Below are positions 11,251-17,405 of a stretch of 64,000 nucleotides of DNA, piece after piece. The DNA lies in the NCBI RefSeq assembly GCF_000021965.1, contig NC_011832.1, positions 558,001 through 622,000 of the forward strand, in the 5' to 3' direction. The stretch's first letter is position 1. Every line of letters begins with the position of its first letter. The notes under the pieces are model-generated. The model worked only from the letters and a program-made list of their open reading frames with translations, did not search any database and had not been told where the DNA came from. The DNA comes from Methanosphaerula palustris E1-9c (GTDB taxonomy: Archaea > Halobacteriota > Methanomicrobia > Methanomicrobiales > Methanospirillaceae). The position numbers and the translations under genes are program-made.

Positions 11251-11368
11251 GTTTTTGTTCCGTTCCGACGGTATTTTTTTATGAAATCTACACGTAATTC
11301 GTGGGTATCACTGCGACAAATGTTAAATTAAAAAAATGTATTACTCATAAAATTAATACTAATTGATC

Positions 11369-11545
11369 ATGGGAGAAATTGAAAAGTGTGAATACTGTGG
11401 GAAGGATGCTATCGGTCTCCAGTCATTTGAGGGCAGTTTTGCCTATGTCTGCGAAGATCATGCTGACGGTCTCCTTCGTGCACTCAAGCCCGGTGAAAAA
11501 AAATCTTATGGTGTTTGTTATCTCGAACGATACGATAACAATTGA
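11369..11545 (+). CDS. small Cys-rich protein (putative metal-binding), unknown function
   Basis: 58 residues starting at ATG 11369 (MGEIEKCEYCGKDA); a TTG two codons upstream is less likely. The CxxC at positions 7-10 and later Cys-Glu-Asp-His (YVCEDH, about 29-34) would make a small zinc site, as in treble-clef or zinc-ribbon mini-proteins. An AT-rich tract just upstream (TTAAATTAAAAAAATG) can serve as promoter. A degraded paralogue lies 340 bp downstream (11889-11990), which shows the family was duplicated here. No function can be named. Confidence 0.65.
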   Translation: MGEIEKCEYCGKDAIGLQSFEGSFAYVCEDHADGLLRALKPGEKKSYGVCYLERYDNN

Positions 11546-12348: not shown

Positions 12349-13590
12349 TTATTTGTTGAAACAGTTCAGATAGATCATGTCGCTGCCGGTCTTCGCAAGC
12401 CGGTCGCGCTCTGCACGCTCTTCGACCAGTGCCAGTATCGGCAGTGTCATGTCGACACCCGGTTTGTGGCCGAAGAGATCTTCTAGCTCGACCTGCTGTG
12501 CATGCATGAAGAGGGCGTTCGGGATCTCTGCTGGGCAGAGTTCCTCACACTGTCCACAGTTCACGCAGGAGTCTGATATATGTGCGTATCTAATCAGGTG
12601 GAACATAAAGTTCGGTGGGATCTCTCCTGGAGTGACCAGTGCCGGGTTCTTTGTTGAGCAGTCCACGCAGTAACAGATCGGGCAGGCTTCGATGCATGAG
12701 TAGCACTTGATGCAGCGTGCGGTTGCCTTCATGATCTTTTCGAGCCGCGTCTGTCCCTGACCGAGTTCGGTGAAGTCCTTTGCTCGCCACTTGTCGCCGA
12801 GCTTCAGCATGGCGCCCTCGATCTTTCCCCGGATCTCGATCCCCTTTGCTGGGGCCGGCTCGGTGGCGATGGCGCCTGCCTGCTCTGCCCTGGTGAGGAG
12901 GTCTGCGCCCTTCTGGCTGCAGACTTCGACGAAGGTGGCCTTGCCTGCCTTGTCGCCAATAACACCCCAGTTTCCGCAGGCGAGGTCTGCCTGGCGGGGG
13001 ACCTTCAGCTTGCAGCGGCGACAGTTGGTCCTGCGGCCAAAACCCTCATCCTCAAGGATGTCCATGGCGATACCTTTGTGACCTTCCTCAGTTTCGATGA
13101 TGAACTGTCCCTTGTCGATCTCCTCCTTTTTAACGTCGTTCGGGTCGACTTCGTACTTCTCACGGATCATCGTGCGTGCGAGGGCCGGGCTTACTGAGCC
13201 GCCACAGTTCACCCCGATCATGGTGACATTGTCGAGGTTGATCTGCTTGCGCTTGGCCAGTTCGTATATCCCCATCATGTCGCAGCCCTTGACGGTGACA
13301 CCGAGTTTCATGTCGCTGGCGCCGTCGAGGTACTTCTTGATCAACTTGGAGAGCAGGAGCGTTCCGCAGTGGAGGGAACCTGCCGTGTTGTTCAGGTCTT
13401 CGGGGTTCGTGATCAGGACTGGCTGGGCATCATAGAGGTCAACCCCTCTCTGCACGGTCAGCACTGCATCGACGATCTTGTTTTCAAGTGCATATTTGAG
13501 AAGAGCGGTGACTGCACCCCCACACTCTGCTTTCTTCTGTAGGTCTGCATTGGTGGTCCAGGCCAGGACCATGTCGCCTTTTGCTGCCAT
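12349..13590 (-). CDS. fdhB: F420-dependent formate dehydrogenase beta subunit
   Basis: Passes electrons from the FdhA molybdopterin centre through Fe-S clusters and FAD to coenzyme F420 in the cytoplasm. 413 residues of the FrhB/FdhB family: N-terminal KAECGGAVTALLKYALE, VGVNCGGS-type segment near 145, a Cys group FGRRTNCRRCKLKVPRQADL near 185, and two ferredoxin-like clusters near the C-terminus (CIKCYSCIEACPICYC about 297-312 and CVNCGQCEELCP about 342-353). Its ATG overlaps the fdhA stop by one base (TAATG), so translation is coupled. A broken copy of part of this gene lies at 10853-10916. No fdhC formate transporter is adjacent. Confidence 0.95.
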   Translation of the reverse strand: MAAKGDMVLAWTTNADLQKKAECGGAVTALLKYALENKIVDAVLTVQRGVDLYDAQPVLITNPEDLNNTAGSLHCGTLLLSKLIKKYLDGASDMKLGVTVKGCDMMGIYELAKRKQINLDNVTMIGVNCGGSVSPALARTMIREKYEVDPNDVKKEEIDKGQFIIETEEGHKGIAMDILEDEGFGRRTNCRRCKLKVPRQADLACGNWGVIGDKAGKATFVEVCSQKGADLLTRAEQAGAIATEPAPAKGIEIRGKIEGAMLKLGDKWRAKDFTELGQGQTRLEKIMKATARCIKCYSCIEACPICYCVDCSTKNPALVTPGEIPPNFMFHLIRYAHISDSCVNCGQCEELCPAEIPNALFMHAQQVELEDLFGHKPGVDMTLPILALVEERAERDRLAKTGSDMIYLNCFNK

Positions 13591-15650
13591 TACTGTACCT
13601 CCGGAATCTTCTCAATCCTCACAGAGCACGCCTTGTACTCTGGAATGCTCGCTATCGGGTCGAGTGCATTGTTGGTCAGGATGTTTGCTGCGCACTCCTT
13701 GAAGTGGAATGGCATGAAGACAACACCTTTCTTTATGTCCTTTGTAACCCGTGCACCGATATTGATCTCTCCTCTGCGGGAGATTGCCCGGATCATCTCC
13801 TTGTCCTTGATGCCCAGTGCCTTTGCATCTTCAGGGTTCATCTCGACCCAGCCGGTCGGTTCCTCGCGTTCGAGACTCTCCGAGCGGCGGGTCATCGTCC
13901 CGGTATGCCAGTGCCACATGCAGCGGCCGGTGGTGAGGAGGAGTGGGTACTCCGCATCCGGTACTTCTGCCGGTTGTTTCCATTCGATGGGGGTGAGGAT
14001 GCCGAGACCATCAGGTGTTCCGAACTTCTCCTTGTGGAGGACCGGTGTTCCGGGGTGCTCTGCGGTTGGGCATGGCCAGTGGAGCCCTTCGGCGCCTAAG
14101 CGTGCATAGGTCATACCGCCATAGGATGGTGTGACCTTGGCCACTTCGTTGAAGATCTCTTCAGGACTCTTGAATGCAAACTGCTTCTCGTAACCCATTG
14201 CGGCCCCGAGTTCACAGATGATCTGCCAGTCGGGCTTTGCCTGTCCTGGTGCATCCTGCGCCTTTCTCCAGAGCTGGACACGCCGCTCGGTGTTGGTCTG
14301 GGTTCCGTCGCGCTCTGCGTAGCAGGAGCCCGGAAGGACAACGTCTGCAAGTTCAGCGGTCTCAGTCAGGAAGATATCCTGTACGACCATAAATTCGAGG
14401 TTTTTCAATCCCTTCTCGACGTGGTGAAGATCAGGATCAGAGATCATCGGATTCTCGCCCATGACGTACATGCATTTCAGGGTGCCAGGCTCATCAGCGA
14501 GAACGTTGATCATCTTGGTGACGGTGTACCCGACCTTGCCCTCGGCGATGTCGCATCCCCATGCCTCGGTCATCTTCTTGTGGAGATCTGAGTTGGCGAC
14601 CTGCTGGTAGCCTGAGTAGACGTTCGGCAGGCAGCCCATGTCGCAGGCTCCCTGCACATTGTTCTGGCCACGAAGTGCGCAGACGCCGGCGCCCCGCTTG
14701 CCGAGGTTTCCGGTGATCATCTGCAGGTTGGCTGTGGACTTCACATTATCGACACCAACGGTGTGCTGGGTGATGCCCATCGAATAGAGAAGTGCACTGG
14801 ACTCGGCCTTTGCGATCCACTCGGCTGCAGTGGCGATGTCCGCTGCCGGGAGACCGGTGACCTTTGCCACGTTTTCGAGGCTGTAAGTGTCCTTCATCAC
14901 GACCTCTTTGAGTTTGTCAAAGTCCTTGGTCCGCTTTGCAATGAACTCCTTATCCTCCCATCCATTCTTGATGATGTGCTGCATCAGCCCGTTCAGCAGG
15001 GCGACATCGGTGCCTGAGAAGAAGGGCAGGTACAGATCGGCCTGCTTGGCGGTGGGGGTGAACCTTGGATCTGCAACGATCACTTTTACCCCGTTCAGCC
15101 TGGCCATCATGATCCGGCGGCCGATCAGGGGATGCTGCTCAAAAGTGTTGGACCCGATCACAAAGATGCACTTTGCCTCGCTGATATCCTCGATCGAGTT
15201 GGTCATGGCCCCTGACCCGAAGACGGCTGCAAGGCCGGCGACGGTTGATGCGTGGCACAGCCTGGCGCAGTGGTCGACGTGTGGTGTTTTGAGGACGGCA
15301 CGAGCAAATTTCTGCAACAGGTAATTCTCTTCATTGGAGACACGGGCAGATGCAAGACACGCCATCTCTTCTGGCTTGTATGCTTTGAACTTGGAAACGA
15401 TCAGTGCGTATGCTTCGTCCCAGGATGCCTCGACGAACGTGCCATCCTTCTTGATCAGGGGGGTGGTCAGCCGGTCCGGGCTGTTTACAAACTCGGCTGC
15501 ATAATTCCCCTTTGCACATGTCTTGCCCTGGTTTACTGGGGCACGATGCCATGGTGCGGTGTCGACAACCTTCCCGTCTTTGACGACAAGATTGAACCCG
15601 CAACCTGTTCCGCAGTACGGACAGGTCGTTGGTACGTATTTCATCTCCAT
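13590..15650 (-). CDS. fdhA: formate dehydrogenase alpha subunit, cysteine form
   Basis: Catalytic subunit oxidising formate to CO2 with a bis-molybdopterin guanine dinucleotide cofactor. 686 residues. N-terminal [4Fe-4S] site CPYCGTGC (10-17) and GKTCAKGNY; the metal ligand is Cys132 in DHCARLCHAS, encoded TGC, not selenocysteine. Further family marks are FVIGSNTFEQHPLIGRR, MGITQHTVGVDNVK and the C-terminal dinucleotide-binding part LTTGRCMWHWHTGTMTRRSE. Ribosome site GAGGT nine bases before ATG 15650. Upstream TATA-like and palindromic sequences suggest regulation. Together with fdhB it lets the cell grow on, or equilibrate with, formate. Confidence 0.97.
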   Translation of the reverse strand: MEMKYVPTTCPYCGTGCGFNLVVKDGKVVDTAPWHRAPVNQGKTCAKGNYAAEFVNSPDRLTTPLIKKDGTFVEASWDEAYALIVSKFKAYKPEEMACLASARVSNEENYLLQKFARAVLKTPHVDHCARLCHASTVAGLAAVFGSGAMTNSIEDISEAKCIFVIGSNTFEQHPLIGRRIMMARLNGVKVIVADPRFTPTAKQADLYLPFFSGTDVALLNGLMQHIIKNGWEDKEFIAKRTKDFDKLKEVVMKDTYSLENVAKVTGLPAADIATAAEWIAKAESSALLYSMGITQHTVGVDNVKSTANLQMITGNLGKRGAGVCALRGQNNVQGACDMGCLPNVYSGYQQVANSDLHKKMTEAWGCDIAEGKVGYTVTKMINVLADEPGTLKCMYVMGENPMISDPDLHHVEKGLKNLEFMVVQDIFLTETAELADVVLPGSCYAERDGTQTNTERRVQLWRKAQDAPGQAKPDWQIICELGAAMGYEKQFAFKSPEEIFNEVAKVTPSYGGMTYARLGAEGLHWPCPTAEHPGTPVLHKEKFGTPDGLGILTPIEWKQPAEVPDAEYPLLLTTGRCMWHWHTGTMTRRSESLEREEPTGWVEMNPEDAKALGIKDKEMIRAISRRGEINIGARVTKDIKKGVVFMPFHFKECAANILTNNALDPIASIPEYKACSVRIEKIPEVQ

Positions 15651-15679
15651 AAGAAAACCTCAAACTGTTGAATTTTAAT

Positions 15680-15716
15680 TTACTTAAGTAACTTTACTTA
15701 TTTAACCATAATGGTT
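15680..15716. promoter_or_regulatory. palindromes in the fdhA promoter region
   Basis: Two perfect inverted repeats lie just upstream of fdhA: TTACTTAAGTAA at 15680-15691 (6+6) and AACCATAATGGTT at 15704-15716 (6-1-6). On the minus strand a TATA-like GTTAAATAAG sits between them, about 50 bases before the fdhA ATG, so the first repeat would cover the start-site region and the second the BRE/TATA edge. That is where archaeal repressors or activators bind. The regulator is not known. Confidence 0.5.
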
Positions 15717-15793
15717 CAATTCTTGAAAATTGTATATTTTTGGTGGGTATTATCCGGCGTCGGTTCGTGTTTATCGAGATAATTTTGAAAATG

Positions 15794-15840
15794 TTTATAT
15801 GGCTACTGTGGTACAACCTGTTCTAGCGCAGGATGTCCTG
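15794..15840 (+). promoter_or_regulatory. probable promoter of the zinc-ribbon gene
   Basis: TTTATAT at 15794-15800 is a good archaeal TATA core, placing a start site near 15825. Right after it CAGGATGTCCTG (15829-15840) is a 5-2-5 inverted repeat overlapping the first codon candidates, and CAGGATGT is repeated directly. Suggests regulated expression; inference only. Confidence 0.4.
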
Positions 15841-16433
15841 TGCAGGATGTGTCTGGACTGAAGAAGACTCCCATGTTCCCCCTGATGCTGGATCTAGTCC
15901 GGTCGGGTCTCTCTGCAATGGATGGTGTAGTCTTCACCGAACGACAGTGCTGCCCGTATTGTGGCGGGCCCTTACTCGTCCATGATTATAAGGATCGTAA
16001 GTTTGCAACTCTTCTCCAAGGGTCGGACCAGATGGATATCATGGTATCGGTCCGACGTTTTCACTGCCGGTCCTGTCACCGGCTGGTCACTGCCGAAGTT
16101 CCATTCTACCCGGACGTCCACCTCGGATCCCCTGTGGTGGATCTTTGTATCGTCCTCACCCACCAGTTGCCATACTCCCAGGCGGACCGGCTGATTCGTG
16201 ATCTGGGTGTCGTTCTCCACCGTGGCACGATCAGAAACTACGCGACTCTCCCGATCATGCCGGCCGTGACTGATAACCTCTTTGGGATCACCTTTCCTCG
16301 CTCGCTCCTGAACCTGTCATCGCTGGCTGCAGCCAGGAGTGCAGGAGAGCCGATCACCGGGGAGGATGCACTGGCTGCCTGCATGTCCGTGGATTTATCT
16401 AACCAGGAAGTCATCAGATCCTTATCAAAATAG
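15840..16433 (+). CDS. zinc-ribbon / helix-turn-helix protein, transposase-like N-terminal module
   Basis: 197 residues from GTG 15840; ATG 15873 (MFPLMLDLVRSGL) is an alternative. A four-Cys zinc ribbon is clear: CCPYCGGP near 38 and RRFHCRSCHRL near 74, followed by an HTH-like helix pair, SQADRLIRDLGVVLHRGTIR near 122-141. This layout resembles the N-terminal DNA-binding part of ISL3-type and related transposases, but no DDE catalytic domain follows: the protein stops 55 residues later. It may be a domesticated or truncated transposase serving as a DNA-binding protein. It is divergent from fdhA across 190 bp rich in palindromes. Confidence 0.55.
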   Translation: MQDVSGLKKTPMFPLMLDLVRSGLSAMDGVVFTERQCCPYCGGPLLVHDYKDRKFATLLQGSDQMDIMVSVRRFHCRSCHRLVTAEVPFYPDVHLGSPVVDLCIVLTHQLPYSQADRLIRDLGVVLHRGTIRNYATLPIMPAVTDNLFGITFPRSLLNLSSLAAARSAGEPITGEDALAACMSVDLSNQEVIRSLSK

Positions 16434-16469: not shown

Positions 16470-17405
16470 TCAGTGTGATCTGTTCTGCAACGCCATCTCG
16501 CGGACCGCCCAGGCTGGAAGGGCATCGGCGAGTTCTCCGAGTTCCTCTTCAAGGCTGGTACCGCCGAGTACCCCCGCAATGAGGCCGGCCCCAATCCCTG
16601 CAGTCAGCACCTCGTCTGCACCTGAAACCTCGGCTATCCGTTCCACCTCTCTTCTGATGGCATGACTCTGGATCGCCCAGCACTGTTCTGCGATTGATAG
16701 GACCCCGACCTCTCCAATCTCTTCCAGGTCTGCACAGACGACTCGGGCGAGCCTCCTCTGTGAGCCGACCAGGGTCTTCTCCCTGTGATCGGGAGCGTCG
16801 CAGGTATACTGCTCAGTGGTGATATGCCCCAGAACCAGGTGGAGATCGGCACTGGTCGCAAAGTATTCGCTTGAAATAGGAGTCCTGACTCCCTCAAGAT
16901 CAACCGAGTGAAGGATGGCTGCGACGTTGGTCCTGAGCATACCGGTATAGATCAGGTATCCCCGCTGTAGTCTGAGCAGATCGGTCAGTCCGGTCAGGTC
17001 AGAGAATCGGGTCAGCGGGATGATGTCGGTCGTCGTCGAGCCGAAGTCGACGAAGAGGGCGTTCGGGTGCTCTCTTCTGAGCCTGTCGGCAGAAGCGAGC
17101 CAGTTGGCCGCTGCCAGCGAGGGGTCTGAATCGTCATGAAAGGCCCCGTCCATGCCATAGAACCGGGATTGAGGGAATGCTGCCCTGACGGCGTTTACGA
17201 TGAACCGGATCCCCTGCTCCTTGGCTGGGAAGCAGTCGGCCAGTTCTCCACTCATCACGACGGCAGCTTCTTCGGTGAGGCCCGGGTTATAGGGCCTGAG
17301 CAGTGTTGTGATCGGGGCCTTCTCCCAGAGCGGGCAGTAATGAATCGCCACCCCTTTCTCGGTCACTACCTTGAGATTCGCACCGCCGACGTCGATCCCG
17401 ATCAT
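16470..17405 (-). CDS. mfnF: methanofuran biosynthesis protein MfnF
   Basis: Couples the aminomethylfuran phosphate unit to gamma-glutamyltyramine in methanofuran synthesis. 311 residues of an actin/hexokinase-like fold (older annotation: H4MPT-linked C1 transfer pathway protein). Seen: phosphate loop IGIDVGGANLKVV at the N-terminus and a second, FVDFGSTTTDIIPLT, near 120. Its ATG overlaps the stop of the ATP-grasp gene in an ATGA quartet (17402-17405). The pairing with MfnD, as in MJ0815/MJ0816 of Methanocaldococcus, supports the assignment. Confidence 0.85.
   Translation of the reverse strand: MIGIDVGGANLKVVTEKGVAIHYCPLWEKAPITTLLRPYNPGLTEEAAVVMSGELADCFPAKEQGIRFIVNAVRAAFPQSRFYGMDGAFHDDSDPSLAAANWLASADRLRREHPNALFVDFGSTTTDIIPLTRFSDLTGLTDLLRLQRGYLIYTGMLRTNVAAILHSVDLEGVRTPISSEYFATSADLHLVLGHITTEQYTCDAPDHREKTLVGSQRRLARVVCADLEEIGEVGVLSIAEQCWAIQSHAIRREVERIAEVSGADEVLTAGIGAGLIAGVLGGTSLEEELGELADALPAWAVREMALQNRSH

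Follow-up and report, generated by a model that had tools for sequence, protein, structure and literature searches.

The 197-aa zinc-ribbon protein encoded back to back with fdhA in Methanosphaerula palustris is probably a dedicated regulator of fdhAB, derived from a transposase, that binds a 23-bp element in the shared spacer and most likely activates fdhA. We analysed a 64,000-nucleotide stretch of DNA (the window), which corresponds to bases 558001-622000 of the single 2,922,917-bp contig of strain E1-9c, together with the equivalent loci of other Methanomicrobiales. The original prediction had taken three inverted repeats of the spacer as the arrangement expected if a divergently encoded DNA-binding protein regulates both genes. 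Sequence comparison puts a stronger reading in place of the palindromes, namely a candidate regulator found across the order, with a site of its own. The near-universal back-to-back pairing with fdh genes, combined with a site at a fixed distance, makes this protein the probable candidate for the missing switch that controls formate use.

Within the window, fdhA and fdhB lie to the left of the spacer, the zinc-ribbon gene diverges from them, and an mfnF-like gene converges on it further to the right (Table 1); the extents of fdhA and of the 197-aa open reading frame (ORF) agree with the earlier description. Because homologues align from approximately residue 7 of this ORF, the true start may be the GTG at position 15849, in which case CAGGATGTCCTG would fall in the leader and not at the gene start. 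Separately, an ORF of 60 aa at 11363-11545 (+) of the window contains a CxxC pair (CEYCG) and gave no match in a Pfam search.

Table 1 Features of the fdh locus in window coordinates.
Feature	Position	Strand	Basis or remark
fdhB, F420-dependent beta subunit	12349..13590	-	FrhB_FdhB_N and _C
fdhA, formate dehydrogenase alpha subunit	13590..15650	-	TIGR01591, 880.7 bits (cut-off 666)
GAGG, presumed fdhA ribosome-binding site	15658..15661	-	relatives with ...CGAGGT before ATG, by eye
Palindrome TTACTTAAGTAA, between TATA box and presumed transcription start	15680..15691	.	perfect, arms of 6
TATA box TTAAATA of fdhA	15699..15705	-	conserved in relatives' aligned spacers
Inverted repeat AACCATAATGGTT, over presumed BRE	15704..15716	.	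arms of 6, 1-nt centre
Conserved fdh element ACCCACCAAAAATATACAATTTT, candidate upstream activating site	15726..15748	-	order-wide footprint
TTTATATG, presumed TATA box of zinc-ribbon gene	15794..15801	+	sequence only
Imperfect inverted repeat CAGGATGTCCTG, zinc-ribbon gene start	15829..15840	.	arms of 5, 2-nt centre
Zinc-ribbon/HTH gene, candidate formate dehydrogenase regulator, 197 aa	15840..16433	+	start may be 15849
mfnF-like gene, convergent neighbour right of zinc-ribbon gene	16470..17405	-	TIGR03123, 304 bits

The protein family is present in 60 of the 61 genomes of the order, in 72 copies. When 294 genomes from the phylum were searched with the family profile, 55 matched, all within the order, and none of the 239 other genomes did so at E <= 1e-10. 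A scan of named species genomes, which used one short peptide pattern and thus finds close relatives only, returned 43 loci, 41 from named Methanomicrobiales and two under the bare title 'Euryarchaeota archaeon'. Divergence from fdhA within 900 bp was observed for 51/72 copies and divergence from fdhC for 8/72. The remaining 13 comprised three with less than 500 bp of upstream sequence, one with fdhA further off, three with fdhB and one with fdhC on the other side, and five without an fdh gene in the stretch examined. Counted by genome, 46 of 60 carried the divergent fdhA arrangement, seven fdhC only and seven neither. By itself, adjacency says less than it seems to, since fdhBA, the zinc-ribbon gene and mfnF are kept as a whole block; tblastn placed an mfnF-like gene (methanofuran synthesis) convergently beside the zinc-ribbon gene in 50 of the 72 loci. 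Among the 22 copies lacking mfnF, however, 17 still lie beside fdhA (11), fdhC (3) or fdhB (3), indicating that duplicates follow fdh and that the tie is to fdh. Two copies that are not divergent to fdhA (L075 and L090) are located near fdhB and, approximately 2.6 kb off, a carbonic-anhydrase-like ORF. Shortened FdhA-like proteins are encoded divergently from the zinc-ribbon genes of L065 and L106 (~620 aa) and of L102, L114, L119 and L129 (~500-560 aa).

Alignment of 71 of the 72 copies (alignment A1; one copy is cut by a contig end) revealed ten invariant columns, namely C38, C41, C76 and C79, which are the cysteines of the zinc ribbon, and D49, R73, P88, F89, Y90 and P153. A structure model built from 44 sequences (mean pLDDT 89.7, pTM 0.84) shows an N-terminal helix, the zinc ribbon with a long hairpin, helices in helix-turn-helix (HTH) order at residues 97-135, predicted at 97-109, 112-121 and 128-135, and a small C-terminal part. 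The window protein carries 19 K+R and 19 D+E residues and is not net basic. Searching the PDB by sequence gave 0 matches, and searching it by fold gave none with E <= 0.001. A second PDB fold comparison yielded four rows, at Z 2.0-2.3 only; one of these placed modelled residues 97-137 on the ISCth4 transposase 6xgx (1.5 A over 41 residues, Z 2.1), a match that is suggestive and no more.

Profile comparisons identified the N-terminal zinc ribbon and HTH of IS66/ISL3 transposases in the family (NF033517 and NF033550 for IS66/ISL3; Pfam PF14690). Window residues 32-133 match IS66 positions 23-127, residues 35-91 match ISL3 positions 10-67, and at E <= 0.01 the N-terminal parts of the models match 67/71 members for ISL3 and 63/71 for IS66. 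We ruled out that the window protein is itself a transposase: its IS66/ISL3 scores of 28.6 and 33.9 bits are far below the curated cut-off of 180, its open frame stops after 197 aa without a catalytic DDE domain, and the family is not scattered as mobile multi-copy elements are, with 72 copies in 60/61 genomes and 59 of these divergent at fdhA or fdhC. In contrast to IS66/ISL3 transposases, the family has no catalytic domain, is mostly single copy and is vertically kept. In the reverse direction, the family profile found no significant match among local full-length IS66 transposases. DUF6431 (PF20020), a domain of unknown function, matches 61/71 members when counted at E <= 0.01 and not by gathering score; the window protein reaches 26.3 bits, 0.3 bit short of the gathering score of 26.6, and the match covers the ribbon half only (profile positions 1-41 of 82).

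The candidate target emerged from unsupervised expectation maximization (EM) on 51 fdhA-linked spacers, in which one motif dominated with a log-likelihood of 491.5, compared to 72.0-77.4 in three shuffled control sets. Its 23-bp consensus is ACCCACC(A/G)NTA(A/T)T(C/A)ATCAATTT, and its 5' end lies approximately 43 bp ahead of the 5' end of the fdhA TATA box. We re-fitted the motif to a 20-bp matrix and scored it on the same 51 spacers, which are thus its training set; it exceeded a score of 10 in 48/51, 46 of these at the fdhA promoter, and 41/51 surpassed the best of 2040 shuffles (17.9). The best match lay beside the zinc-ribbon gene and not fdhA in L122 and L132, and scores were low in L093, L114 and L119. 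In an independent set, 28 of 30 further loci scored at least 14. Spacers of copies adjoining fdhC lack the element. At fdhA promoters away from the zinc-ribbon gene, a hand-picked subset in which 39 of 40 fetched upstream regions were scored, 19/39 exceeded 12 and 20/39 were at or below 12; in 16 of the 19, the element lies 84-90 bp from the start of the fdhA match. The HTH at L114, L119 and L129 carries NPGSVR or NPSTIR in place of DRGTVR, and the element at these loci is degenerate in its second half.

We then anchored the spacers on the element, using 47 of the 51 (two low scorers and two with their best match next to the zinc-ribbon gene were left out), or 38 after redundancy filtering. 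Across these 38, clear conservation was confined to the element (columns 0-22), a single A at column 32 and the TATA box. Measured from the element's 5' end, the TATA box began at 42-43 bp in 37 of the 47 aligned spacers. The 3' end of the element lies approximately 20 bp upstream of TATA, beyond the BRE, which is the conserved, fixed-spacing position of an archaeal upstream-site activator's target; judged by this placement, the candidate would act like such an activator and is a putative member of the class. The copy in the window is deviant, with a leave-one-out score of 14.6, and is still the top site in 64 kb (next best 9.8). No other site of the 2.92-Mb genome comes within two mismatches of the consensus; the sole further match, with 3 mismatches, falls inside a transposase-like ORF. 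A direct repeat, CAYCAAT N3 CAYCAAT, is visible inside the element with a 10-bp period; we considered it too weak to claim (self-overlap 0.47 at shift 10 and 0.44 at shift 13, the latter over fewer columns).

The same footprinting decided the fate of the palindromes. All three repeats named in the original prediction are present, the first two flanking the TATA-like TTAAATA, which the second overlaps by 2 bp; the assignment of this TATA box to fdhA gained support from its conservation in relatives. The spacer is also modestly palindrome-rich, with six inverted repeats (arm >=5, loop <=2) where 5000 dinucleotide shuffles gave 0.91 (P 0.0034) and three with arm >=6 where they gave 0.26 (P 0.0084), a generous estimate because overlapping repeats were counted separately. 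Conservation upstream of fdhA, in contrast, failed: TTACTTAAGTAA and AACCATTATGGTT, the fdhA-side pair, each occur in 1/51 fdhA/zinc-ribbon spacers of Methanomicrobiales, namely the window's own, an exact copy of AACCATAATGGTT likewise occurs in 1/51, and dyad symmetry at the AACC..GGTT position was not significant across the 38 non-redundant relatives (P 0.077). The idea that the palindromes themselves are the operators, favoured by their presence and over-representation in the window's spacer, is rejected on the footprint, whose conserved columns form a non-palindromic 23-mer and the TATA box, and we give it almost no credence. Control of fdhA by the divergent, DNA-binding-like protein finds support in the order-wide pairing and the conserved site at a fixed position, the trace expected of a dedicated regulator, without the palindromes as its operators.

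Regulation of both genes, the wider form of that claim, found backing in one genus (g21; L112, L117, L122, L127 and L132), where a second element lies approximately 45 bp from the zinc-ribbon start in 5/5 genomes (scores 8.8-16.9), a position that would suit autorepression. Genome-wide, a strict element pattern gave 41 matches in the 61 order genomes, compared to six for a reversed-pattern control, and 30 of the 41 lie, by coordinates, at fdhA or in the fdhA/zinc-ribbon spacer. We listed the flanking ORFs of the 11 non-fdhA matches as candidates for a wider regulon and set the idea aside, as most look like chance matches within genes. In the phylum sample, a hand tally of the strict pattern gave 41 matches and four controls for 55 order genomes, compared to 49 matches and 31 controls for the remaining 239; the element and the zinc-ribbon protein are both bound to the order. 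Promoter-like matches away from fdhA occur in two genomes of the same genus (L133, G058:C110; L134, G053:C1), where TATA-like boxes follow the element-like sequence and a common stretch, AAACCCCGAAAACCCCTTT..TTTCCACTGGAGGG, runs without a clear gene; this could be a small RNA or an unannotated locus. At L081 (G018:C4), which no longer has fdhA, an element scoring 18.2 lies 135 bp upstream of a zinc-ribbon gene and is apparently left over from an operon that was lost or moved; the same genome carries fdhA with an element elsewhere (L146).

To compare the divergence of element and protein, we applied partial Mantel tests to 42 of the 47 loci, five being dropped for too little FdhA. These tests are liberal, and by them element distance correlated with protein distance after removal of FdhA (partial r 0.34, P 0.0005; 42 pairs), compared to 0.09 (P 0.16) with FdhA distance after removal of the protein. 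The spacer outside the element correlated more weakly, at 0.23 with the protein (P 0.0005) and 0.21 with FdhA (P 0.001). Divergence of the element tracks the zinc-ribbon protein rather than FdhA, a result that favours reading of the element by the protein but is no proof of it.

It seems rather unlikely that a different order-wide factor binds the element and that the zinc-ribbon protein is a neighbour with another formate role, such as enzyme maturation. Such a factor would accommodate the conservation of fdhBA, the zinc-ribbon gene and mfnF as a block, the element at fdhA promoters far from any zinc-ribbon copy, and the fdhC-linked spacers without it, but it sits poorly with the family's resemblance to the DNA-binding end of transposases (ISL3 67/71, IS66 63/71), the coinciding distribution boundaries of protein and element, their co-divergence, and the duplicates that follow fdh without mfnF.

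Still less probable is a role as repressor or dual regulator, in which the protein, bound to the element, would block or tune initiation, with the species-specific palindromes over the BRE and around TATA as additional sites in the window. As described in passages of two papers, archaeal activators bind upstream of the BRE and repressors over the promoter or downstream (PMC5512572, PMC4158304). By the relevant passage of PMC5512572, the palindromes occupy repressor territory, one over the BRE and the other lying between the TATA box and the presumed transcription start, and the inverted-repeat excess (P 0.003-0.008) and the second element near the regulator's own start in g21 also favour repression. 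The palindromes are not conserved, however, and the site that is conserved ends approximately 20 bp before TATA, making activation the likelier direction; an activator is accordingly more likely than a repressor. We consider it very improbable that the element belongs to the core promoter as an extended BRE read by a special TFB or TBP: the rigid spacing to TATA would fit, but the element ends beyond the BRE and is essentially confined to fdhA promoters (30/41 pattern matches).

Returning to the zinc-ribbon protein as the regulator, we propose that its zinc ribbon and HTH come from the DNA-binding front end of an IS66/ISL3-like transposase, whose catalytic domain it lacks, and that it would bind the 23-bp element upstream of BRE/TATA. 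Weighing against the proposal are the conservation of the neighbourhood as a block, the element-free fdhC spacers, the 20/39 fdhA promoters at or below 12, the low scores of L093, L114 and L119, the correlation of the outer spacer with the protein, the window protein's lack of net basic charge and the weak PDB fold matches. Activation of fdhA would most likely proceed through help with TBP/TFB loading, and in one genus the protein probably also represses its own gene. The signal might be the presence of formate or a scarcity of H2; fdh is described as induced under H2 limitation in Methanococcus in part of a review (PMC3600222). Extending this response to the fdh genes of Methanomicrobiales is a guess by analogy. 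As to origin, we tentatively suggest, at somewhat under even confidence, that an ancestor of the Methanomicrobiales captured a transposase front end as a one-target fdh regulator, that the pair was co-inherited and co-duplicated with fdh operons, that single cells hold several matched regulator-site pairs, and that both partners drifted in M. palustris. In this species, otherwise near-invariant positions have changed in the protein (T93, R94 and D127) and in the element (positions 9 and 14).

Formate is a main carrier of electrons from one partner to the other between syntrophic bacteria and Methanomicrobiales; we found no described regulator of methanogen fdh in the open-access literature. 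A named candidate protein and a named 23-bp target make this regulation directly testable; if the proposal is true, it would provide a clear example from the archaea in which the DNA-binding part of a transposase became a pathway-specific regulator. The closest parallels are EarA, which we take to be of a different protein family from the zinc-ribbon candidate, and Ptr2 and TFB-RF1, which are presumably not transposase-like zinc-ribbon proteins. In the passages on the fla promoter of Methanococcus maripaludis, EarA is likewise a methanogen regulator with short sites directly upstream of BRE/TATA and one operon as its target; that system has four 6-bp sites, with binding and mutants proven, whereas ours has one 23-bp element and putative binding (PMC5512572). 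Ptr2 of Methanocaldococcus jannaschii and TFB-RF1 of Pyrococcus furiosus are described, in parts of two papers, as activators that bind upstream of the BRE and recruit TBP or TFB (PMC5512572, PMC4158304), and their targets, unlike that of our candidate, are not formate dehydrogenase.
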